A stretch of 64,000 bases of DNA from Ancylobacter moscoviensis (lineage in GTDB: Bacteria > Pseudomonadota > Alphaproteobacteria > Rhizobiales > Xanthobacteraceae). The stretch's first letter is position 1. Each line of letters begins with the position of its first letter. Below, one piece after another: positions 48,058-60,098 of the stretch. Made by a program: the position numbers and the translations under genes. The notes below the pieces were generated by a model. It did not search any database and had not been told where the DNA came from. It saw only the letters and a program-made list of their open reading frames with translations. Location: the NCBI RefSeq assembly GCF_007559435.1, contig NZ_VMBP01000002.1, positions 620,001 to 684,000 of the forward strand, read 5' to 3'.

Positions 48058-48192
48058 CGGCGTCTCCTGAGGTTTGGCTGGGCGGGGATGATGCGGCGCA
48101 ATGTCGACGGCGGACGGCGTTCGGTCAACGTCGCAGCGCCGGCAAACCCCTGCGGGCAAGCGCTGCCGTTCTCCTTCCGGCATTGTTGAGTC

Positions 48193-48232
48193 CTAAGGTC
48201 ATAATCCCTTCAGGCAGGTTTCACTCTAAGGT
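48193..48232. promoter_or_regulatory. Paired CTAAGGT boxes upstream of the module-protein gene
   Basis: CTAAGGT occurs at 48193-48199 and 48226-48232, 33 bases apart (three helical turns). The same hexamer occurs twice upstream of the RTX gene at 44-base spacing. They may bind a regulator of this cluster. Inference from spacing and repetition only. Confidence 0.4.
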
Positions 48233-48312: not shown

Positions 48313-50106
48313 ATGGCGACCGACAGCTCTGCGGCAGTGCCCGATACGTCTTCTGGCGCAATGGGCAGCAATCCCGAACAGATCATCGCGGAGCTCCTGG
48401 CGAGCGTCGCGCTGCCGGATTTCTTCGAGGACCTGATCTCGAGCGTGTGCTGGGTTCCCGAGATCGGCGATTCCGGCCTGTCGGTCGGGGTGTCGCCCAT
48501 GGCGGTGGCCGTGGGGCAGGACACCAATGTCGACGTCTTCGCGATGCTGGAAATCACCTCCTTCAGCTGGGGCGCGCTGGCGCAGGGGCAGGCGAACCTG
48601 TCGTCCTTCGCCAGCGGTGGCTTCGACCAGGCCCTGCTGGCATCGGCCGACGCGGCGTTCGACACTTGTGGCGCCGACATCGTCCTGCAGATCCAGACCA
48701 CCACGACGATGGGCGGACAATGCGGTCTGATGGCGTGGACGGCGCAGGAGGTCGAGGTCGAGTATCTGGCCATCGACATTGCCGGCTATACGCCCGCCGG
48801 CGGGCCGCTGGTTCTCTCGATCGGCACCGACATCACGCTCTCCGGCAACGGCTGGAGCCCGCCGCTCACGATGTTCGGGAACCTTGCAACCTTCGAACTC
48901 GCCAACACCGCCTGGGGGGTGGACAGCTTCGTCGAGAGCGTGGTCGAAGCGCTGACGGTCGAGGACCAGATGTCGAGCGTGACCGCGAACCTGCTCGGCG
49001 CCGTCGATTTCAATCTGGCGGTGCCGACGGATCCTACCGATCCGACAGACCCCACGGATCCCACGGACCCAACCGATCCCACGGATCCGACCGACCCGAC
49101 GGACCCCACCGATCCGATCGATCCGGGCCAGCCCGGCGTGGTGCCGAAGCCGGGTGTCGTGTTGATCGACCCGCCGGGAGGCGGCGACGGGCCGGTCCAT
49201 GGCGGCGCTGGCGGCGGTCGCGGCTCCTCTCCCGATCCCGATGTCGGCGACCTGCTGGTGGTGCCGCGCGTGGGCGGCAGCTTCAGCTCCGGCGGTGGCG
49301 GCGGCGGCCTGAACCTGATCAGCGCGTCGGGGGATGGCGGCGACGTCAACCTGTTCGGCGTCGATCTTGAAGCCTGCGGCGCGGACCCCTCGATTTCGGT
49401 GACCTGCGGCAGTCCCTATGGGGGCGACGGCTCGGGAGAGGCGGCCGCCGCGGAAGGCGGCGGTGGCGGCGAAGAGGTCCAGGCCGCCGAGGCGGTGGAT
49501 GAGGAACTCGACGAGGAGATCGACGCCGGGGACGGCGCGCCGGACGATGCGTCCGTACAGGATGGCGATGCTGGCGAGATGGGCGACGGCGATGCCGGCA
49601 GCGGCGATTGCCCGTCCTGCGATGCGCTGACGCCGGCCAATTCCGAATATTCCTGTGACGATGCGGCCATGGTCTGCCAGACCGGCGCCGATGTGTACGA
49701 CCTGTCGGATCTCCAGGGATGCGGGACGGTGCAGGAATTCAACCTTCGCGAGGGCGACCGGCTTGTCGGCTTCAGCAACTGGTCGACGGACGCCTCGCTC
49801 GGCGCGGCGAATGGCGAGACGCTCTTCCTCGAGCGGGCCGACTGCGACCCGAACGACCTGATCATCACCTTCGTCAGCAACGGCTACGAGGTCAGCGTCC
49901 GGCTCGACGAGTTCTTTGTCATCAATCCCGAGTTCGACAGCGTTTCGGCCAGTGACGTGCTGCCGGATGCCGAGGCCGTACCCATCCTGCGGTCGGTCCT
50001 GCGGATGGGCAGCGAGATGCAGCAGATGGCATCCGCCAATGGCCATTCGGCACCGCTGCCGGACGCGGCCATGACCCTCGGCGGCGCCATCATGCTTCTG
50101 GCATAG
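48313..50106 (+). CDS. Large acidic module protein with Asp-Pro-Thr linker (unrecognised)
   Basis: I do not recognise this 597-residue acidic protein. It has no signal peptide or membrane segment. Residues 1-236 are beta-rich and low in charge, with two copies of an ED/QD-type motif (AVAVGQDTNVDVFAM near 63-78; a full 44-residue module at 189-232 with GNLATFELANTAWGVDSF and LTVEDQMSS). An Asp-Pro-Thr repeat linker spans 238-271. A Gly-rich and very acidic region follows (285-430). A C-terminal part has six Cys (CPSC, EYSC, MVC, QGC, ADC) and EFFVINPEFDS. The GGGGAAG site supports the ATG. The next two genes share the module. With RTX and type I secretion genes downstream it is probably a type I client (inference). 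Confidence 0.8.
   Translation: MATDSSAAVPDTSSGAMGSNPEQIIAELLASVALPDFFEDLISSVCWVPEIGDSGLSVGVSPMAVAVGQDTNVDVFAMLEITSFSWGALAQGQANLSSFASGGFDQALLASADAAFDTCGADIVLQIQTTTTMGGQCGLMAWTAQEVEVEYLAIDIAGYTPAGGPLVLSIGTDITLSGNGWSPPLTMFGNLATFELANTAWGVDSFVESVVEALTVEDQMSSVTANLLGAVDFNLAVPTDPTDPTDPTDPTDPTDPTDPTDPTDPTDPIDPGQPGVVPKPGVVLIDPPGGGDGPVHGGAGGGRGSSPDPDVGDLLVVPRVGGSFSSGGGGGGLNLISASGDGGDVNLFGVDLEACGADPSISVTCGSPYGGDGSGEAAAAEGGGGGEEVQAAEAVDEELDEEIDAGDGAPDDASVQDGDAGEMGDGDAGSGDCPSCDALTPANSEYSCDDAAMVCQTGADVYDLSDLQGCGTVQEFNLREGDRLVGFSNWSTDASLGAANGETLFLERADCDPNDLIITFVSNGYEVSVRLDEFFVINPEFDSVSASDVLPDAEAVPILRSVLRMGSEMQQMASANGHSAPLPDAAMTLGGAIMLLA
49024..49125 (+). repeat. 9-base minisatellite encoding Asp-Pro-Thr repeats
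   Basis: About eleven units of CCNACNGAY-type 9-mers encode PTD repeats and end in a degenerate IDP unit. The tract makes an extended, acidic linker between the module part and the Gly-rich part. It is prone to copy-number change. Confidence 0.9.
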
Positions 50107-50281
50107 GCGGCGAGCCCGCCCCGACCGGCAGCGGTCGCGGGCGGGTGCTGCGTGCCGGGGGATCGGACGGGGGGATGCGCAGCCGAGCGTTCATCGGGTG
50201 CCAGCCCCCTTCTTTATTGGACCGCCTGACGGGCAGCCCGGCGCGGCCGGACCCGCCACAGGCACGAGCACGGGTGGCGCC

Positions 50282-51013
50282 ATGTCATTCACCGTCAATT
50301 CCAGTGTCGGCCAGACTTTTGACTTCGCGGTTTCGGAGATCTCGGCGACGGAGGACGGCGAGACCGTCCACGCGCTGGAGATTGCCTCGGATGTGCAGTC
50401 GGGCCCCTCCAGCGGCGATGGCGGGACGGGCATGGCGATGGCCATCGGCGGAGAGGCGACGGCCGTAGGCGAGGACACGCTGGCGGTGGCCGAGGTGGAG
50501 GCCATCCTCGCGGGCGATGCCGACATGCAGATCGCCTTCGGCTCCGCCAGCTTCGTTGCCGCCGGCGAGGGCGACGGAGGCGCCTATGCGGGGGCCTTCT
50601 CCTATGCCGAGCTCACGGGCGATGCGGATCGCGGCGTGACGCTGAACACCTCGGTGACGGAATACGTGCAGGAGCCGGAAGGTGCGGCCTGGTACGCGAG
50701 CGCGCAAAGCGTGCTTTTCGCCCTCGACATCGATGGCATGCCGGGCAGCACCGACGCGGCCGGCGCGGTGGAGGACCCTCCCGATGCGGGCGAGCCGGCG
50801 CCGCTGGAGGAACTGCCGCCCGCCGCTGGCTATGACTGCGGGTGCGGCGGCGATGGAGATCCCGCTTTCACCATCGACGGCAATCTCGCCTGGTTCGATG
50901 TATCCGCCGCTGCGGTAGCCGAAGACAGCCTCGTGACCGTCGATGTGGTGGCTCTTGCGGTGGAGGATCAATTGTCGTCCGCGATTGTAAATGTCGTACT
51001 CGGGATCGATTGA
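50282..51013 (+). CDS. Module protein, 243 residues (unrecognised)
   Basis: This acidic protein without signal peptide begins MSFTVNSSVGQTFDFAV. Residues 59-75 (ATAVGEDTLAVAEVEAI) carry the short motif, and residues 200-243 are the same module that ends the neighbouring protein (NLAWFDVSAAAVAEDS, LAVEDQLSS). A Pro- and acid-rich linker (159-182) and a CGCGG cluster (186-190) precede the module. The protein ends two residues after the module. Only one His and few aromatic residues are present. I know no named domain for it. It is 175 bases below the 597-residue protein gene and 160 above the 102-residue one. Confidence 0.78.
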   Translation: MSFTVNSSVGQTFDFAVSEISATEDGETVHALEIASDVQSGPSSGDGGTGMAMAIGGEATAVGEDTLAVAEVEAILAGDADMQIAFGSASFVAAGEGDGGAYAGAFSYAELTGDADRGVTLNTSVTEYVQEPEGAAWYASAQSVLFALDIDGMPGSTDAAGAVEDPPDAGEPAPLEELPPAAGYDCGCGGDGDPAFTIDGNLAWFDVSAAAVAEDSLVTVDVVALAVEDQLSSAIVNVVLGID

Positions 51014-51100
51014 AGAAATAATTCCGATTACCGGATCGAATTATATTTTAACCGGCAAATACAATCCCATACCACTTCGGATCATACACCCATTGCCCTT

Positions 51101-51129
51101 TTGAATTGAGAATTTGAAGAACATACAGT
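51101..51129 (+). promoter_or_regulatory. Candidate promoter of the 102-residue module gene
   Basis: TTGAAT (51101-51106), 17 bases, TACAGT (51124-51129) in an AT-rich gap, 45 bases above the ATG at 51174. This suggests the small gene can be expressed independently of its upstream neighbours. Confidence 0.45.
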
Positions 51130-51173
51130 TTTGATCGTCGGCGATGTGCCGATCTTGGGAAATGGAGAGCGTC

Positions 51174-51482
51174 ATGACTTATCCGTACAATGGCGGCGGT
51201 GACCATGGTGGCAGCAGCGACTTCGATTGGGAACTCGACGTCAACTATGACTTCAATCTCGACGTTTACGTCGATTTCGAAACGGACGTGAACTACGACA
51301 GCGAGTACAACGCCGATCCCGAGGTCAATGTCTGCGTGGACATTGAAGGCAACTTCGCCGGCTTCGCGGTCGACGTGCAGGCGATCGGCGAGGATACGGC
51401 GACCGAAGTGAATCTCGCCGTGATCACCCTGGAGGATGAGTACTCCAGCATCACCCTGACGGGTTACTCGGCGGTCGGCTGA
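51174..51482 (+). CDS. Small module protein, 102 residues (unrecognised)
   Basis: The ATG at 51174 follows GGAGAG; an in-frame ATG at 51162 is possible. The N-terminal 55 residues alternate Asp/Asn with Val, Tyr and Phe (DVNYDFNLDVYVDFETDVN), suggesting a beta structure that binds cations. Residues 59-102 are the shared module (GNFAGFAVDVQAIGEDTATE, ITLEDEYSS). The protein ends at the module boundary like the 243-residue neighbour. No signal peptide. Function unknown; co-location with type I secretion genes suggests export. Confidence 0.75.
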   Translation: MTYPYNGGGDHGGSSDFDWELDVNYDFNLDVYVDFETDVNYDSEYNADPEVNVCVDIEGNFAGFAVDVQAIGEDTATEVNLAVITLEDEYSSITLTGYSAVG

Positions 51483-51667: not shown

Positions 51668-51729
51668 AAGAGTTACTTAGCGCCTGTGCTGTCTAAGTGT
51701 TGGGCATGCCCCGATCTGGGCTCTACCCC

Positions 51730-51779
51730 CTAAGGTGTATCCAGCCAACTGCCTACAATGGCGCGTCATACCTCTAAGG
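51730..51779. promoter_or_regulatory. Paired CTAAGG boxes upstream of the RTX gene
   Basis: CTAAGG at 51730-51735 and 51774-51779 are 44 bases apart (four helical turns). With the pair at 48193 and 48226 they form a possible shared control element of the cluster. Confidence 0.4.
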
Positions 51780-51878
51780 GTGCTTCCACGACAGAGCCGT
51801 TGTTGCCCGCTCAAGCAAAGCATTAGCTTCAATTCATACAGCTATTGGCGGGTTTTTGTGCCGGCGGGAGGAAGGACT

Positions 51879-54830
51879 ATGGCGTCTATCAAGATAACCC
51901 GATCTTATTCGCCGACTTCATCTTTGAAGACGTCTTCGCCGCTCCTGGCGGCGGCCGGCAGCCTGACGGGTGGCTCGACCGGTGCGGAGTCGTCCTCGAC
52001 CCTGATGGGGCTCATGTCGACCACGTCGGCGCCCATCTATCAGCTCCGCACCCTGACGACGAACGGCGACTCGGTCGAGATCACCGCCTCGGGGCGCTTC
52101 GAGGTGCGGGGCCTTGCCGGCAACGACGTCATCGCGATTCGCCCCGGGACCACCGGCGGCGACCTGCTCGACGGCGGCGACGGCAACGACACGCTCAACG
52201 CGGCGGAAAGCGACGACGTGCTGATCGGCGGGGCCGGAACCGATCGCCTGAACGGCGGTGCCGGCAACGACGTGCTGAACGGCGGCGCGGGCGGCGACAC
52301 GCTCAATGGCGGGGACGGGATCGACACCGCCGTCTATTCGTCGTCGCCGGCCGCGGTCATCATCTCGCTCAATCTCGATCCGCTGAGGTCGACGCGCGGC
52401 GCCGGCGGCGAGGCCACCGGCGACACGCTGACGAGCATCGAGAACCTCACGGGCTCGTCCTACAACGACGTGCTCTCGGGCAACGCGCTCGACAACCAAC
52501 TCGTCGGCATGCTCGGCAACGACACGCTGCGCGGGGGCGACGGCAACGATCTGCTGATCGGCGACACGATCATCGACGTCGACGGCAACGGCGTGCCGGA
52601 CGACGACGATGGTGACGGCATCCCCGACGGCGTGAACGACACGATGGCGGGCGGCAACGACACGCTCGACGGCGGCGCTGGCAATGACCGGCTGTTCGGC
52701 GGGGGCGGCAACGACACGCTGGTCGGCGGCTTCGGCAATGACGAACTCTATGGCGGCTATGGCGACGACCTGCTGACCAGCGGCGATGGCGACGACCTGC
52801 TGGACGGCGGGGAGGGCGACGACCAGCTCATTGCCGGCTTCGGCAACGACACGCTGCGGGGCGGCGGCGGCAAGGACTGGCTGAACGCCTCGCTGGGCGA
52901 CGACCTGCTCTATGGCGGCGCCGGCGACGACGACCTCAACGCCGGCGACGGCCTCGACCAGCTCTATGGCGAGGAGGGCAACGACGTCCTGCTCGGCGGC
53001 GCGGGCGACGACCTGCTGTATGGCGGCGATGGCGACGACAGGCTCGACGGCGGTTCGGGCAACGATCTCCTCGATGGCGGAGCGGGCTTCGACACGGCCG
53101 ACTACTCGGCCGGCGGGGCGGTCGGCGTCGATCTCGGAGCGGGGGCGACCTCGGGGGCGGCGGCGGGCGACACGCTCGTCTCCATCGAGGCGGTGATAGG
53201 CTCCGGGTTCGACGACATTCTTGCGGGTGACGGCGGCAACAATAGCTTCCGCGGCGGCGGCGGCGCCGACACGCTGGTCGGCCAGGGCGGCATCGACACG
53301 GCGGACTACTCGACCTCGGACGAGGCGGTGACGATCCAGCTCAATTCCAGCGCCGCCGATCCGACCGCCGCGGGCACCGGGACGGGCGGGGACGCCGAGG
53401 GCGACACGCTGATCCTGATCGAGCGGATCATCGGCTCGGCCTTCGCCGACACGCTACTGGGCGGCGAGCTGGGAGACACCCTCGTCGGCGGGGCCGGCGC
53501 GGATGTGCTGAACGGCAATGGCGGGACGGACACGGCGGAATATTCGACCTCCGCCGCCGGCGTGAACGTCGCCATCGATGGGGGCCTGACGACAGTCGGC
53601 GTCGGCGGTGACGCCGAGGGCGACCAGCTCACCAACATCGAGAACCTCATCGGTTCGGCCTATGACGACGTGCTGAGGGCCGGAGCCGGCAACAACCGCC
53701 TCGATGGCGGGGCCGGCAACGACCGGCTGATCGGCGGGCTCGGCGCCGACACGCTGATCGGCGGCGACGGCGTGGATACCGTCGACTATTCGGAATCGAA
53801 CGCCGCCGTCGGCCTCGGCCTCACCGATGTGCCCGGTCAGGCGACGCAGGGCAACGGTGGCCACGCGCAGGGCGACATCATCGCCCAGATCGAGAACATC
53901 ATCGGCTCGGCCTTCAACGACACGCTGCAGGGCAGTGCCGGCGCCAACCGGCTGGAAGGCGGCGACGGCAACGACACGCTGCGCGGCCAGGGCGGCGCGG
54001 ATGTGCTGATCGGCGGGCTCGGCGTCGATACGGCGAGCTATTCGACCTCGGCGAGCGGCGTCAACGTGTCGATCAGTTCCACCGGGACCACGGTCGGCTC
54101 CGGCGGCGACGCGCAGGGCGACCAGCTCAGCGGCATCGAGAACCTGACCGGCTCCGCCTTCGCCGACGTCCTCACGGGCAGCGACGGCGACAACCGGCTG
54201 GAGGGCGGGGCGGGCGACGACCGGCTCGTCGGCGGGCTCGGCGCCGACACGCTGGTGGGCGGCGACGGGTTCGATACGGCCGACTACTCGGCCTCCAACG
54301 CCGGCGTGACCATACAGCTCTCCGCCAATCCGGCGGCGGGCACGCTCGGCTCGGGCGGGCACGCGGCCGGCGACGTGCTCAATACCATCGAGGCGGTGAT
54401 CGGCTCGGCCTTCACCGACACGCTGCTGGGCAGCACGGGCGCCAACAAGCTGGTTTCCGGCGCCGGCAACGACATCATGCGCGGGGGCAGCGGCGCCGAC
54501 CTTCTGGTCGCCACCGGCACGGGGTCGAAGACCCTGTACGGCGACGGCATCTCGGACGGCGGCACGGCCGGGATGGACATCTTCCAGATCATGGGCGGCA
54601 CCAATGTGATCGCCGACTACCAGACCGGGGAAGACATCTACGTCAACAGCCTGAGCAATGCCGCGCTGGTGCAGCTTTCCGGGGGCAACAACCTCGCTTT
54701 GCGCCTCACCGGCTCGACCCACACGACCTATGTGATTGTCGGTACGACCGCGGATCCGACTGCAGCCACCCAGGCCGCCAACACGATCCTCAGCACCGAT
54801 CTCTTCGTGAATCCGAACCTGATCGCCTGA
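51879..54830 (+). CDS. RTX (haemolysin-type calcium-binding) protein with supra-repeats
   Basis: The ATG at 51879 after AGGAAGG gives 983 residues. It has no signal peptide. RTX nonapeptides (GGxGxDxLx) begin near residue 90 and run in blocks, for example [10 protein letters not shown] and [11 protein letters not shown] longer unit of about 80 residues recurs seven times: DTADYS-type start, [17 protein letters not shown], then RTX nonamers. An Asp-rich loop (residues about 230-255) resembles a calcium loop. The C-terminus [12 protein letters not shown] includes an acidic-hydrophobic DLFV that suits type I export signals. No enzymatic domain is seen, so it is likely a surface or adhesive protein. 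The ABC exporter follows. Confidence 0.9.
53093..54430 (+). repeat. Tandem supra-repeats inside the RTX gene
   Basis: Units starting with DTADYS or similar (first bases near 53093, 53294, 53525, 53775, 54026 and 54272, plus a more distant one at 52322) are spaced by 200-250 bases. Each has a DTADYS strand, a GG(D/H)A.GD.L stretch, an IE..IGSAF box and RTX nonamers. This suggests growth by duplication. Confidence 0.8.
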
Positions 54831-54893: not shown

Positions 54894-56648
54894 ATGTCGA
54901 CGCGTGACAAATGGTTCCGCAACAACGAAACGGATCTCGAACTGGCCATGGCGCAGTGCCGGCAGGCGCTGGGGCCGCTTATCCTGTTCAGCCTGGCGAT
55001 CAACCTGCTGACCCTGGCCTCGCCGCTCTACATGCTGCAGGTCTACGACCGGGTCATGGTGACGGGCAATGTCGACACGCTGGTGATGCTCACCGTCATG
55101 GCCGCCGCGGCGTTGCTGCTGTTCGGCATGCTGGACAGCATCCGCTCGGTGCTGACGGTGCGGATGAGCACATGGCTGTCGGATCGGCTGGGGCCGGTCT
55201 ATCTGGCGCATTCCGTCCGTTCCCGGCTGCTGGGCGACGGCTCCGGCGCGCAGCCGCTGCGCGACCTGCAGCAGATCCAGAACTTCATCTCCTCGCCGGG
55301 GCTGGGCGTGTTCTTCGACGCGCCCTGGGCGCCGGTCTATCTCCTGCTCATCTGGATGCTGCATCCGGCGCTGGGAACGCTCGCCATCGCCTCGACCATC
55401 GTGCTGCTGCTGCTCGGCCTCGCCAACGAGGCGATCACCCGCCGGTCGACGCAGGTGGCCAGCCAGTCGCAGATCGTCGCGACGATGCAGGCCGAGACCA
55501 CGATCCGAAACGCCGAGGTCGTCTCCGCCATGGGCATGCTGCCGGCGCTGATCGACCATTGGCGCACGGCCAACAATGTCGGGCTGCAGGCGACGCAGAA
55601 GGCGAGCGAGCGCGGCGCCTTCCTGCTCGGCCTGACCAAGTTCGCGCGGCTCTTCATGCAGTCCGGCATTCTCGGGCTCGGCGCCTATCTGGTTCTGAAG
55701 GGGCAGGTGTCGGGCGGCGTCATGATCGCCTCGTCCATCCTGCTCGGCCGCGCGCTGGCGCCGGTCGAGATGGCCATGGCGACCTGGCGCAATTTCTCGG
55801 TGGCGCGCGTCGCCTATGCCCGGCTGAAGACGCGACTGGAAAGCCTGCCGGACGAGAGCCGCCGCATCAGCCTGCCGGAGCCGAAGGGGCAGGTGAACCT
55901 CCAGCATGTCAGCTTCGTGCCGCCGGGCTCGTCGGCGCCGGTGCTCCAGCAGGTGAGCTTCCAGGCGACGCCCGGCGAAGCGATCGCGGTGATCGGCCCT
56001 TCCGCCAGCGGAAAGAGTTCGCTGTGCCGGCTTCTGGTCGGCGTCGCCCGGCCGACCGGCGGGGTGGTGCGGCTCGACGGCTCGGACCTGAAGCACTGGA
56101 ACCCGGACGAGCTGGGCCGCCACATCGGCTATCTCCCGCAGGAGCCCGAGCTGTTCCCCGGCACGGTGCGCGACAACATCGCCCGCATGAACTGCACGGA
56201 CGAGGCCGCCGTGATCCAGGCCGCCATGCTGGCGCACGCCCATGAGATGATCCAGCTGCTGCCGAACGGCTACGACACGCCGATCGGCGACGGCGGGCTG
56301 CGGCTCTCCGGCGGGCAGCGCCAGCGCATCGGGCTGGCGCGGGCCATCTACGGCGTGCCGAAGCTGATCGTGCTCGACGAGCCCAACGCCAATCTCGACC
56401 AGGCGGGCGAGGCGGCGCTCTCGGCGGCGATCGAGGAAATGAAGGCCAAGGGGGCGACGCTGCTCATCGTCGGGCACCGGCCCTCGACCATCGCCCAGGC
56501 GGACAAGATCCTGCTGCTGCGGGAGGGGCGGGTGGAGGCGTTCGGCGTCCGCGACGAGATCCTCAAGCGGCTGCGCGTGGCGGCGACCGGGCCGCTGCCG
56601 GCCGAAAGGGAGCAACAGGAGCGTCTGACGGCGGAAGCCGCCGGATAG
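54894..56648 (+). CDS. Type I secretion ABC transporter (PrtD/HasD family)
   Basis: The 584-residue fusion of membrane and ATPase parts has the PrtD signature LASPLYMLQVYDRV in its first hydrophobic segments. Six membrane helices run to about 300. The ATPase has Walker A GPSASGKSSLCR, Q-loop GYLPQEPELFPGTVRDNIAR, signature LSGGQRQRIGLARA and Walker B LIVLDEPNANLD. It lacks the C39-peptidase-like domain of HlyB, as PrtD and HasD do. It drives export of RTX substrates through HlyD and TolC. It is 63 bases below the RTX gene and cotranscribed with the adaptor. Confidence 0.93.
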   Translation: MSTRDKWFRNNETDLELAMAQCRQALGPLILFSLAINLLTLASPLYMLQVYDRVMVTGNVDTLVMLTVMAAAALLLFGMLDSIRSVLTVRMSTWLSDRLGPVYLAHSVRSRLLGDGSGAQPLRDLQQIQNFISSPGLGVFFDAPWAPVYLLLIWMLHPALGTLAIASTIVLLLLGLANEAITRRSTQVASQSQIVATMQAETTIRNAEVVSAMGMLPALIDHWRTANNVGLQATQKASERGAFLLGLTKFARLFMQSGILGLGAYLVLKGQVSGGVMIASSILLGRALAPVEMAMATWRNFSVARVAYARLKTRLESLPDESRRISLPEPKGQVNLQHVSFVPPGSSAPVLQQVSFQATPGEAIAVIGPSASGKSSLCRLLVGVARPTGGVVRLDGSDLKHWNPDELGRHIGYLPQEPELFPGTVRDNIARMNCTDEAAVIQAAMLAHAHEMIQLLPNGYDTPIGDGGLRLSGGQRQRIGLARAIYGVPKLIVLDEPNANLDQAGEAALSAAIEEMKAKGATLLIVGHRPSTIAQADKILLLREGRVEAFGVRDEILKRLRVAATGPLPAEREQQERLTAEAAG

Positions 56649-56688: not shown

Positions 56689-58056
56689 ATGCGCTCCGAA
56701 TCCAAAGCTCTTGTCGTGCTGGACCGTTACGGCACGCCGCGCCTGTCGGCGGCCAGCGATGCGGCCTCCTTCCGTCGGGCCGTGCGCGGACCGAAATGGA
56801 TGGGCGGAATAATGATCCTCGCCTTTCTCGGCAGCTTTCTCGCCTGGGGCTTTCTCGCCCCGCTGGCGGGCGGCGCGGTCGCGGCCGGCATCATCAGCCC
56901 GGATGGCAGCCGGCGCGTCGTCCAGCACCTCGAAGGCGGCATCATTGCCCGCCTCAACGTGAAGGACGGCGACGAAGTGACCGCCGGCCAGCCTCTGGTC
57001 GTGCTGCAAAGCATCCAGCCGGAAACGGTGATGCGCACGCAGCTGAACCGCTACCTGACCCTCGTCGCCATGCGGGCCCGGCTCATCGCCGAACAGGAGG
57101 GGGCGAAGGAAATCAGGTTTCCCGACGAACTGCTGGCGGAGAAATCGCCCGAGCTGCCCACCATTCTCGATGGGCAGCGGACGATGTTCGAGACCCGCCG
57201 CAACTCGGACCAGCGCCAGCGCGAGATCCTGCGCCGGCGCATCGAGCAGTCGCAGCACCAGATCAAGGCGCTGGAGGCGCAGGCTTCCTCCGCCGTCCAG
57301 CAGCTCGAGCTGATCGCCGAGGAGCTGAAGGGCAAGCGCTACCTGCTGCAGAAGGACCTCATCCGCAAGGCGGAGGTGCTGAGCCTGGAGCGCGCGCGGG
57401 CCGAGATCGAAGGCCGGCGCGGCGAGTATCTGGGCATGATCTCGCGAGCGGAGCAGCAGATCGGCGAAACCGAGGTGCAGATCCTCGCGCTCGACGCCGA
57501 ACGCGCGGATGCGGTGTCCGAGCAGATGGACAAGGTGCGGGTCGAGCTCGCCGACGTGACCGAGCGCCTGCAGTCCAGCCGCGACATCTACGAGCGGACG
57601 ATCATCACGGCGCCGGTGAACGGCACCGTGGTCAATCTGCGCTTCAAGACGATAGGCGGCGTCATCAAGGCCGGCGAGCCGATCCTGGACATCGTGCCGG
57701 TCGAGGAAACGCTGCTGATCGAAGCGCGCATCTCGCCCGTCGATATCGACGTGGTGCATCCCGGACTGGCGGCGCAGGTGCACCTGACGGCCTTCTCGCG
57801 CTGGGCGCTGCCGCGGATCGACGGCGTGGTCCGGTCGGTTTCCGCCGACGCGATGGTCGACGAGACCACCGGCCAGACCTACTACATGGCGCGGGTCGAG
57901 GTGGACCCGAGCGAGCTGAAGCAGTTCAACGACCTGATCGAGCTCCAGCCGGGCATGCCCGCGGAGGTGTTGATCGTATCGAAAGAACGTACATTTCTGG
58001 ACTATCTGGCCGAGCCCTTCCGCAATGTCATGCGCAGGAGCTTCCGGGAAGCCTAG
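56689..58056 (+). CDS. HlyD-family type I secretion adaptor (PrtE/HasE)
   Basis: The 455-residue membrane fusion protein has one N-terminal membrane helix (about 38-65), the family motif RRVVQHLEGGIIARLNVKDG, a long coiled coil (about 130-290) and a lipoyl/beta-barrel part with TIITAPVNGTVVNLRF. The C-terminal YYMARVEVDPSEL and LQPGMPAEVLI are standard. It links the ABC protein to a TolC-type outer-membrane channel, which is not encoded in the window. Spacing of 40 bases suggests one operon with the ABC gene. Confidence 0.93.
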   Translation: MRSESKALVVLDRYGTPRLSAASDAASFRRAVRGPKWMGGIMILAFLGSFLAWGFLAPLAGGAVAAGIISPDGSRRVVQHLEGGIIARLNVKDGDEVTAGQPLVVLQSIQPETVMRTQLNRYLTLVAMRARLIAEQEGAKEIRFPDELLAEKSPELPTILDGQRTMFETRRNSDQRQREILRRRIEQSQHQIKALEAQASSAVQQLELIAEELKGKRYLLQKDLIRKAEVLSLERARAEIEGRRGEYLGMISRAEQQIGETEVQILALDAERADAVSEQMDKVRVELADVTERLQSSRDIYERTIITAPVNGTVVNLRFKTIGGVIKAGEPILDIVPVEETLLIEARISPVDIDVVHPGLAAQVHLTAFSRWALPRIDGVVRSVSADAMVDETTGQTYYMARVEVDPSELKQFNDLIELQPGMPAEVLIVSKERTFLDYLAEPFRNVMRRSFREA

Positions 58057-58312
58057 GCAATATATGCCGGGACGGTTCCGCGGGCGTTCAGGACTTAAGT
58101 ATTCGTGGATTTTAGATGGAAATGTGCGGGTGACTACAATGTCTTTTGCCTGTTTCCGGTGGCGAGTAGGGTGCGGCATTTAGCTGAACTTGCGGTGGCA
58201 AAACCGCTCGGGAGGCTATAATATGACATTTGGCGGGTTAACGTGCTTGAACTCTATCTTGCGGGGCCGGGATCATCTTCATGGTGAAGTTGGCCGGTGG
58301 AGGAAAAGTATC

Positions 58313-59143
58313 ATGACCGAAGAAGGTGTAGAGAAAGCGGGCTGCGTTAGTATAGTTTTGTTAGACGACCTACCTTTGAGACGCGCGAGCATCAAATCCC
58401 TGCTGCGGGATTGGGCTCTCGAAGAGCGAGTTTCATTGGATACAATCGAGGCGGACAGCTCCGACCGGCTAGATCATATCGAGCGTCGCCCGGAACTGCT
58501 CGTCTACAACTCAGGCTACGTCGCTACCGCCGTGGGCGAGTGGCGCGCGCGGATCGACCGGCTGCGGCAGGCTTTGCCGGATGTGCCGCTGGTCATCATC
58601 TCCGAAGGCGACAACGCGCATGAGGTGATCGAGGCGCTGAAGGCCGGGGTTCGCGGCTTCATCAGCGCGCAGATGCCGCCCGCCATCGTGTTTCAGGCGC
58701 TGCGGTTCATCCTCGGCGGGGGCGTGTACTTTCCGCCCAGCGCGCTGCTCCAGGCGCAGGCCGGTACCTACAGCGCCGAATGGCGACGTACCGGTCCCAC
58801 GACGGTCACGGCGCGATACCGCGTGCAGTGCTCCGGCCTGACTGAGCGCCAGGCGGCGGTGTGGCGGCTGCTCCAGCACGGTCACTCGAACAAGGTGATC
58901 GCGCGCGAGCTGTCGATGTGCGAGTCGACCGTGAAGGTCCACATGCGCCAGATCATGCGCAAGCTGGGCGCGACCAACCGGACGCAGGCGGCGCTGTGCA
59001 GCGTCGAGGCGGTCTCCGGGAACGAGGAAGCCGATGCCGCCGCCGGCGGCCTCGACGAGCCGGCGCGTCCCTGCGCGCTGGTCGGGGCGGAGCCGGACGG
59101 CGTACGCGCCGTGAACGGGCAGGTAGTCGGCTCGGTTCTCTAG
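58313..59143 (+). CDS. NarL/LuxR-type regulator with degenerate receiver
   Basis: The start MTEEGVEKAG after GGAGGAAAAG gives 276 residues. A start at 58223 after GGAGG, adding 30 residues, is also plausible. The receiver-like domain (12-145) has the acidic pair LLDDLPLRR, but the acceptor position reads LLVYNSGY (Asn66 for Asp) and the usual Lys is missing. So it is probably not phosphorylated. The LuxR HTH is at about 182-235: LTERQAAVWRLLQHGHSN, ELSMCESTVKVHM, LGATNRTQAAL. It lies beyond the secretion genes and is a likely regulator of them (inference). A paralogue follows. Confidence 0.82.
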   Translation: MTEEGVEKAGCVSIVLLDDLPLRRASIKSLLRDWALEERVSLDTIEADSSDRLDHIERRPELLVYNSGYVATAVGEWRARIDRLRQALPDVPLVIISEGDNAHEVIEALKAGVRGFISAQMPPAIVFQALRFILGGGVYFPPSALLQAQAGTYSAEWRRTGPTTVTARYRVQCSGLTERQAAVWRLLQHGHSNKVIARELSMCESTVKVHMRQIMRKLGATNRTQAALCSVEAVSGNEEADAAAGGLDEPARPCALVGAEPDGVRAVNGQVVGSVL

Positions 59144-59199: not shown

Positions 59200-59306
59200 T
59201 ATGAGAATGTCTTGCGTTCGGCGGATGTAGTTTCGGTTATACATCTTCTGATATATTTGTTTTTACTTAGTATTGCGCAATATTCGTTGTGTTCGTTCCC
59301 GATGGC

Positions 59307-60098
59307 ATGGACCGCTCGCCGGCACGGCGGCGGCCCTGCACGGGACGGGGATGCCAACGAATATTGGGTGCGGTCTTGCCGGAAGCGGTCATCAAGGAGC
59401 TCGAGCCGAGGGTGCTCATCGCCGATGTCCTCCCGCTTCGCGGGGTGGGCATCAAGGGGTTGCTGCGGGATTGGGCGCAGCTTCATGGGGTCGAGCTGGA
59501 CCTCATGGACCCCTCCGCGGCGGAAGAGGGCGAGCAGCCTTCCCACACTTATCGGATGGTCATCCTCAGCCTGGGGCACCTGTCGGTCGTCGACCGGCTG
59601 TCGCTGGGCTGGCTCGCCCGGCTGCAATATCTCTATCCCGACGCGCCGATGGTCATCTGGTCCGACCGGAACGGGCCGCAGGAGGCGTTGCAGGCGCTGC
59701 GGCACGGGGCGCAGGGCTTCGTGCCGACGATGACCACGCCGCAACTGGCGCTGCAGGCGCTGACCTTCATCATGAGCGGGGGAACTTTCTTCCCGCCGGA
59801 GGCCCTGACCGACCTGCGGCCTTCCGACGCCGAGGAGCGGGGGACGACCTTCATCGGCCGCTCGGAGCCCGAGGACGGGCCGAACGGCCATGGCCGGACG
59901 ATGATATTGCATCGCGTCCCGCCGCCGGCCGGGTCGACGGTAAGGCGCGGCCGGGCGCTTTTGCGCTGTACGATACGAACCCGCCGCCGTCCGTCCGGGA
60001 TCGGCGAGGGGAAGGGCGAGGGCGATCCGACGGCGCGCCCTGCAGCCGTCGGGGCGGTCCTGCGGTTGCGCCTGCGCGGGAGATGCCGGCCGGGGTAG
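59307..60098 (+). CDS. Pseudo-receiver protein without DNA-binding domain
   Basis: The 263-residue frame starts at an ATG, but family similarity begins only near VLPEAVIKELEPRVLIAD, so the true start may be near 59374. The receiver-like part closely parallels the preceding gene (LPLRGVGIKGLLRDWA, GGTFFPPEAL), with Ser at the acceptor position (VILSLGHL). After that domain the sequence is low-complexity and Arg-rich with no HTH in any frame. It may be a truncated duplicate, a dominant-negative partner of the preceding regulator, or a decaying gene. Confidence 0.6.
   Translation: MDRSPARRRPCTGRGCQRILGAVLPEAVIKELEPRVLIADVLPLRGVGIKGLLRDWAQLHGVELDLMDPSAAEEGEQPSHTYRMVILSLGHLSVVDRLSLGWLARLQYLYPDAPMVIWSDRNGPQEALQALRHGAQGFVPTMTTPQLALQALTFIMSGGTFFPPEALTDLRPSDAEERGTTFIGRSEPEDGPNGHGRTMILHRVPPPAGSTVRRGRALLRCTIRTRRRPSGIGEGKGEGDPTARPAAVGAVLRLRLRGRCRPG

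Follow-up and report, generated by a model that had tools for sequence, protein, structure and literature searches.

Three adjacent genes in a 64,000-nucleotide stretch of the Ancylobacter moscoviensis genome (contig NZ_VMBP01000002.1, positions 620,001 to 684,000; hereafter the window) encode proteins of 597, 243 and 102 residues, here called P1, P2 and P3, which have a 44-residue module in common. Comparison with relatives gives good support to the view that P1-P3 belong to one dedicated type I secretion locus. Our best explanation, to which we assign a probability of about 0.5, is that they are exported together as subunits of an extracellular assembly that probably depends on calcium and in which the module serves as the shared assembly domain. 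They look like the subunits of one such assembly because proteins of different sizes carry a single module, and their genes are grouped with those of a substrate-like protein and of an exporter branch of their own. That the function is secretion-linked and extracellular in one form or another, all forms taken together, is highly probable.

A module common to three adjacent proteins

All features described here lie on the forward strand, and their coordinates are window positions. As read from the translations, P1 is encoded at 48313..50106 and P3, which has neither Lys nor Arg, at 51174..51482; P2 (50282..51013) has 243 residues from its ATG, and its open frame begins with a GTG at 50198. The module occupies residues 189-232 of P1 (48877..49008), 200-243 of P2 (50879..51010) and 59-102 of P3 (51348..51479), as located by profile matches and, for P3, by segment searches as well. 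Both P2 and P3 end exactly with the module; in P1 a (DPT)n linker (49027..49128, read from the translation) comes after it. The motifs AVGQDT and AVGEDT occur at residue 66 of P1 and residue 61 of P2, respectively. An earlier note made from the DNA letters gave the same protein lengths, module positions and motifs. It also found no signal peptide in P1-P3, and by eye no Sec signal is visible in them.

When a 49-residue segment of P3 was used to search the own genome (4.18 Mb in 13 contigs), the only places found at E<=10 were P3 (4e-27), P2 (0.003) and P1 (0.22). A P3-type profile of 11 proteins from 10 loci, including the P3 of the window and excluding P1 and P2 proteins, matched P3 at 7.5e-43, P2 at 2.2e-6 and P1 at 4.7e-6, with no other place at E<=0.001. 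Comparison of a P1/P2 profile with the P3 profile gave E 4.4e-13 and a probability of 97.9 over 49 columns. The module common to P1-P3 is real and beyond chance. P1, P2 and P3 are also real genes, because dN/dS (NG86) ranged from 0.17 to 0.41 in six comparisons (window with L036 and L036 with G010, each for P1, P2 and P3). Convergence driven by acidic, Ala/Val-rich composition would be the alternative, and a chance match to an Asp-rich protein did occur in one genome (G332); however, the specific profile matches are confined to these loci, the gene order is conserved and the genes are under purifying selection, so that this explanation is left with a negligible probability.

The module proved to be the C-terminal part of a longer domain common to P1 and P2, which corrects the earlier description. 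P2 aligns with P1 over residues 18-270 of the 271-residue P2 frame (33%, E 0.0019), and alignment with relatives shows that residues ~56-232 of P1 (48478..49008) and most of P2 form one domain, composed of an AxAxGxDT part, a middle part and then the module. P3 holds the module only, preceded by a strand of alternating acidic and hydrophobic residues (51222..51308, from the P3 alignment). The first part of the shared domain and the module may be copies of each other, although the internal match is suggestive only (probability 74.8, E 2.6e-5, 29 columns).

The earlier note knew no named family for the module, and Pfam, NCBIfam, PHROGs and PDB sequences indeed name none. P1, P2 and P3 had no match above the curated cut-offs in Pfam or NCBIfam, and the sole match of this strength among their relatives was to RTX repeats in one P1 (locus L039). 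In PHROGs, P3 matched only at E 0.057 and 0.21, both times families of unknown function, and the P3 profile had no match among PDB chains at E<=10. Weak hits were dismissed, namely the PDB matches of the P1/P2-domain profile, of which copper-storage proteins were the best (E 0.17), PF25616 on the P1 linker (below the Pfam cut-off) and PF09290 on the N-terminal part of the L039 P1 (E 0.01, below the cut-off). P2 and P3 are annotated as hypothetical proteins in plasmid records, and a description of the module was not found in the literature as judged from titles and the beginnings of abstracts only. On the basis of these searches, the module is filed as a putative new family.

Distribution, gene neighbourhood and the exporter branch

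Module carriers were found in 14 genomes or species (each counted once) from two alphaproteobacterial orders: 13 belong to Hyphomicrobiales, the G genomes being placed there by kinship, and Skermanella belongs to Rhodospirillales. They comprise the own genome (G000), G007, G010, G022, G777, G804, G885, a Beijerinckiaceae metagenome-assembled genome (MAG), three Mesorhizobium, Sinorhizobium numidicum, Microvirga and Skermanella. P1 searches matched 11 of 61 genomes at E<=0.01, four of them strongly (own, G007, G010 and G022), and P2 searches matched six of 61, three strongly. The P3 profile was found in four of 248 genomes of the family collection (own, G777, G804 and G885). Three of 297 genomes were obtained from the order collection (own, G283 and G300), in which the module profile matched nine, strongly only in the same three. 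From the class collection, three of 385 genomes were matched by the module profile and two by the P3 profile, and only the own genome held up in both. Among named genomes, 216 pattern matches yielded six loci, in a Xanthobacteraceae MAG (G007), Xanthobacter sp. NM-59 (G885), the Beijerinckiaceae MAG and three Mesorhizobium (two of them being G283 and G300), and four plasmid records carry P3 (S. numidicum twice, Microvirga sp. VF16 and Skermanella mucosa). The weakest member is G804, with a P3-like match at E 4.6e-5 and a P2-like module at 7.4 bits. Thus the family is rare, scattered and partly located on plasmids; because each collection was searched with one or two P3 queries, divergent relatives beside other exporters may have escaped detection.

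No relative was found in viral contigs with the P1 query, in phages with the P3 query or in plasmids with the P2 query. Weak matches were rejected in G506 (on the strand opposite a long open frame), G663 (two stops inside) and G332 (a different, Asp-rich protein). Also left out of the count were six weak module-profile matches in the order collection (E 0.0026-0.049), weak P2 matches in G008 (7.6e-4) and G051 (0.006), and seven P1 matches (E 2e-9 to 0.0054) that lie between residues 202 and 426, mainly in linker or low-complexity sequence, two of which extend into the last part of the module.

In 12 of these 14 carriers, genes for an RTX protein, a PrtD exporter and an HlyD-like protein are found no more than ~16 kb from the module genes. 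PrtD was identified by profile; except in the window and in the annotated plasmids, HlyD was identified by its size, position and C-terminus. The earlier note had proposed to check whether the module recurs beside type I secretion genes, and it does. The order regulator-P1-P2-P3-RTX-PrtD-HlyD is kept, whole or in part, in these 12 genomes; one of the two S. numidicum records has regulator, P1, P2, P3, RTX, permease/ATPase and HlyD in succession. In G777, a P2-type gene adjoins the exporter, and P3 lies on a different contig, where it is terminal and next to apparent RTX sequence. Two genes of the P2 type and two of the P3 type occur in Skermanella, with the RTX gene 1.3 kb from one P2-type gene and ~10 kb from the P3-type genes. 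The two carriers outside the 12 are on short contigs: that of the Beijerinckiaceae MAG has an RTX gene and stops where the exporter would come next, and that of G804 is 6.2 kb long and has no exporter. A LuxR- or response-regulator-type gene was recognised in 11 carriers, in six of them by Pfam or annotation and in five by eye; the remaining three are G022, G885 and one Mesorhizobium.

Within the window, P1-P3 precede an RTX protein and its type I exporter, as the earlier reading had it. The RTX gene (51879..54830 from a likely ATG, within an open frame that begins with a GTG at 51735; PF00353, E 2.5e-97) is followed by genes for a PrtD-type type I secretion permease/ATPase (54894..56648; TIGR01842, 685.4 bits against a cut-off of 510.15) and an HlyD-type periplasmic adaptor (56689..58056; TIGR01843, 390.7 bits against a cut-off of 208.65). 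Taken as a whole, the locus is filed as a new variety of PrtD-type type I secretion locus. Downstream of the exporter lie a gene for a LuxR-family regulator (58190..59143; GerE, E 1.4e-16) with a weak receiver-domain match (Response_reg, 0.002, below the cut-off) and a second regulator-like open frame without a Pfam match (59289..60098), which by eye resembles the N-terminus of the first; similar pairs occur in G007 and G010. The pattern YCTAAGGK, picked after looking, occurs four times in the window (48192-48199, 48225-48232, 51729-51736 and 51773-51780), as one pair upstream of P1 (33 bp apart) and one upstream of the RTX gene (44 bp apart), and its count was equalled in three of 100 shuffles. 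Twelve other loci showed six single CTAAGG only and no such pair. The pairs are a possible operator.

Identity levels among exporters give good support to the view that the module genes are tied to one branch of PrtD exporters. Among the best 40 of the 494 plasmid records matched by tblastn with the PrtD of the window, only four exceeded 60% identity (61.9-64.3%); these are exactly the four with P3, and the next-ranked PrtD reached 47.0%. Among 15 chosen genomes, the best PrtD was 84, 84, 70 and 59% identical in G007, G010, G022 and G777, respectively. Ten congeners without strong P1 or P2 matches, seven of which also had no P3 match in the family search, had a best PrtD of 39-45% in eight cases and none at 1e-90 in two. 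Over 12 loci, P3 and PrtD distances were correlated (0.85, a value reached by none of 2000 permutations). The branch is defined here by identity levels rather than by a tree, since the PrtD tree fails to resolve the branch and places its single outgroup next to Microvirga (support 0.81). A second PrtD-type exporter of the own genome (L071, G000:C11:120001-140000, 706 bits) lies away from the three module places and has no module gene beside it; it is 38-43% identical to the whole PrtD set.

Substrate ancestry and the proposed assembly

The relatives of P1 point to its ancestry. RTX repeats are present in the P1 proteins of Mesorhizobium, Sinorhizobium and Microvirga: they follow the module in L039 (PF00353, E 3.7e-26) and, by eye, in L040, L041, L056 and L057, the last two being annotated as calcium-binding proteins. 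P1 of the window has no PF00353 match in Pfam, nor have P2 and P3, and its (DPT)n linker stands where relatives have RTX repeats. However, a C-terminal-domain profile built from L039, L040, L056 and L057 (database size set to 4000) matched residues 444-574 of the window P1 (49642..50034) with E 1.4e-14 and the L036 P1 with 6.7e-15; it did not match the G022 P1 or the RTX protein of the window. It is well supported that P1 descends from an RTX-type type I substrate, as suggested by the RTX repeats in its relatives and by the C-terminal domain that the window P1 has kept from them, although, having no repeats itself, it is not classed among the RTX proteins. Compared with the window and G007, G010 has a far longer DPT linker, and the copy number therefore varies between close relatives.

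These features also bear on the suggestion of the earlier note that the module is an export tag, that is, a recognition signal by which this PrtD branch would accept substrates without RTX repeats. The suggestion may hold for P2 and P3, since the module is exactly their C-terminus; its 44 residues are near the ~60 given for RTX secretion signals in PMC3034196, and it goes with one exporter branch. It is less likely overall because the module is internal in P1, where the linker or RTX repeats and mostly another C-terminal domain, of RTX-substrate type, come after it, and the module profile does not match the RTX protein encoded in this locus. As a general account, an export tag is thus unlikely. 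A C-terminal ending of aliphatic residues with Ala, Gly or Asp was also considered as a signal; it occurs in four of 49 other window frames and in 25 of 144 frames of nine loci (module genes included), and nothing was built on it.

The composition of the proteins sets them apart from the rest of the window. Counted over the longest frames, Lys and Arg together make up a fraction of 0.004 in P2, 0.009 in P3, 0.015 in P1 and 0.034 in the RTX protein, the four lowest values among 53 mechanically chosen candidate genes (next 0.052, median 0.110); from the likely starts, the counts are 0/102 in P3, 1/243 in P2 and 9/597 in P1. The earlier note also thought of a cation-binding tag; acidity is highest in the N-terminal strand of P3 rather than in the module itself. 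One stretch of the P3 alignment, picked after looking, alternates at 18 of 22 steps, and in seven of 11 P3 proteins no more than 36 of 2000 shuffles gave a strictly alternating run as long as the longest one observed. Asp at every second strand residue is a calcium-binding design of mineral-associated proteins. A cysteine shortly precedes the module in eight of the 11 P3 proteins, and a CGC motif is present in five of 14 domain proteins, namely the P2-type proteins of the window, L036, L037, L056 and L057, and is absent from those of L038 and Skermanella.

Such acidic, Lys/Arg-poor proteins with these cysteine features could instead be secreted to bind calcium or metals, acting as buffers or scavengers of cations without forming an assembly. 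We regard this as quite unlikely, as it leaves the occurrence of one module in three protein sizes, coded together, unexplained. It is very unlikely that P2 and P3 stay in the cytoplasm and aid the exporter as chaperones or substrate adaptors; this would agree with their lack of a recognised export signal and their position beside the exporter, but the module is also in P1, the apparent descendant of a secreted RTX protein, and their composition resembles that of the RTX protein.

In the proposed extracellular assembly, P1, P2 and P3 would leave the cell through the PrtD/HlyD exporter together with the RTX protein and fold outside, with calcium helping. We infer the export of P2 and P3 and the role of the module in holding the subunits together from sequence comparison. 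The module would be a small, probably beta-rich assembly domain that joins subunits of different size into one surface or matrix structure, in which P1 may act as the large linker or anchor, P2 as the middle subunit and P3 as the small subunit. The N-terminal strand of P3 would present an acidic, probably calcium-binding face and a hydrophobic face for packing. A more specific version is tentative and somewhat doubtful: an undescribed multi-subunit extracellular polymer of Alphaproteobacteria, in which two to four or more module proteins from one exporter branch would co-polymerise outside, with calcium bridging the acidic faces of P3 strands and with P1 and the RTX protein attaching the resulting fibre or sheet to the cell.

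Several observations count against the assembly. P2 and P3 have no recognised type I signal, and the P1-like protein of G022 has neither RTX repeats nor the C-terminal domain. Low Lys and Arg content is not general, since one Skermanella P2-type protein (L058:2975-3589) has 18 such residues in 205, and strict alternation is ordinary in four of the 11 P3 proteins, being reached by 430-530 of 2000 shuffles. The correlation between P3 and PrtD distances falls to 0.23 over eight distant loci. G749 has a PrtD of 76% and an RTX end, yet P3 was not reported there, in a genome that is 79% complete and on a contig that starts inside the RTX frame. In the P2-like protein of G804 (L044:889-2145, reverse strand), an internal Met is followed by a stretch that by eye resembles a Sec signal, perhaps another export route for the same domain.

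A whole type I exporter branch seems to be linked to proteins that share a module named in none of the searched libraries; these proteins occur scattered among soil and plant bacteria, partly on plasmids. If P1-P3 are co-secreted subunits, they would constitute a novel type of surface material as well as a new kind of short type I substrate.

Comparison with known systems

The RTX/PrtD-HlyD type I systems are one counterpart, since the window locus has an exporter, an adaptor and an RTX protein, the P1 of Mesorhizobium contains RTX repeats and the C-terminal domain is retained in the window P1. Unlike in those systems, RTX repeats are absent from P2, P3 and the window P1, and the module is in no searched library.

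The contact-dependent inhibition system Cdz of Caulobacter (PMC5380434) likewise codes small proteins with a type I exporter and may involve assembly at the surface. An antibacterial system of this kind, in which small type I-secreted proteins aggregate on the surface and kill on contact, would also fit the small proteins beside the exporter, their proposed surface location and the scattered distribution (cf. PMC5380434). Glycine zippers and leader-like regions at the N-terminus are, however, features of Cdz proteins. P3 lacks an extended zipper and ends in the module; an extended GxxxGxxxG zipper was found in none of the 11 P3 proteins, and no immunity gene was noticed, though no search was aimed at one. 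A Cdz-like function is thus highly improbable.

RTX adhesins and S-layer proteins of type I systems form calcium-dependent surface or matrix material. The likeness to the assembly suggested here lies in the proposed role only, that of calcium-dependent surface or matrix material after type I export. No sequence relation to them was seen, and here several different proteins have one module in common.

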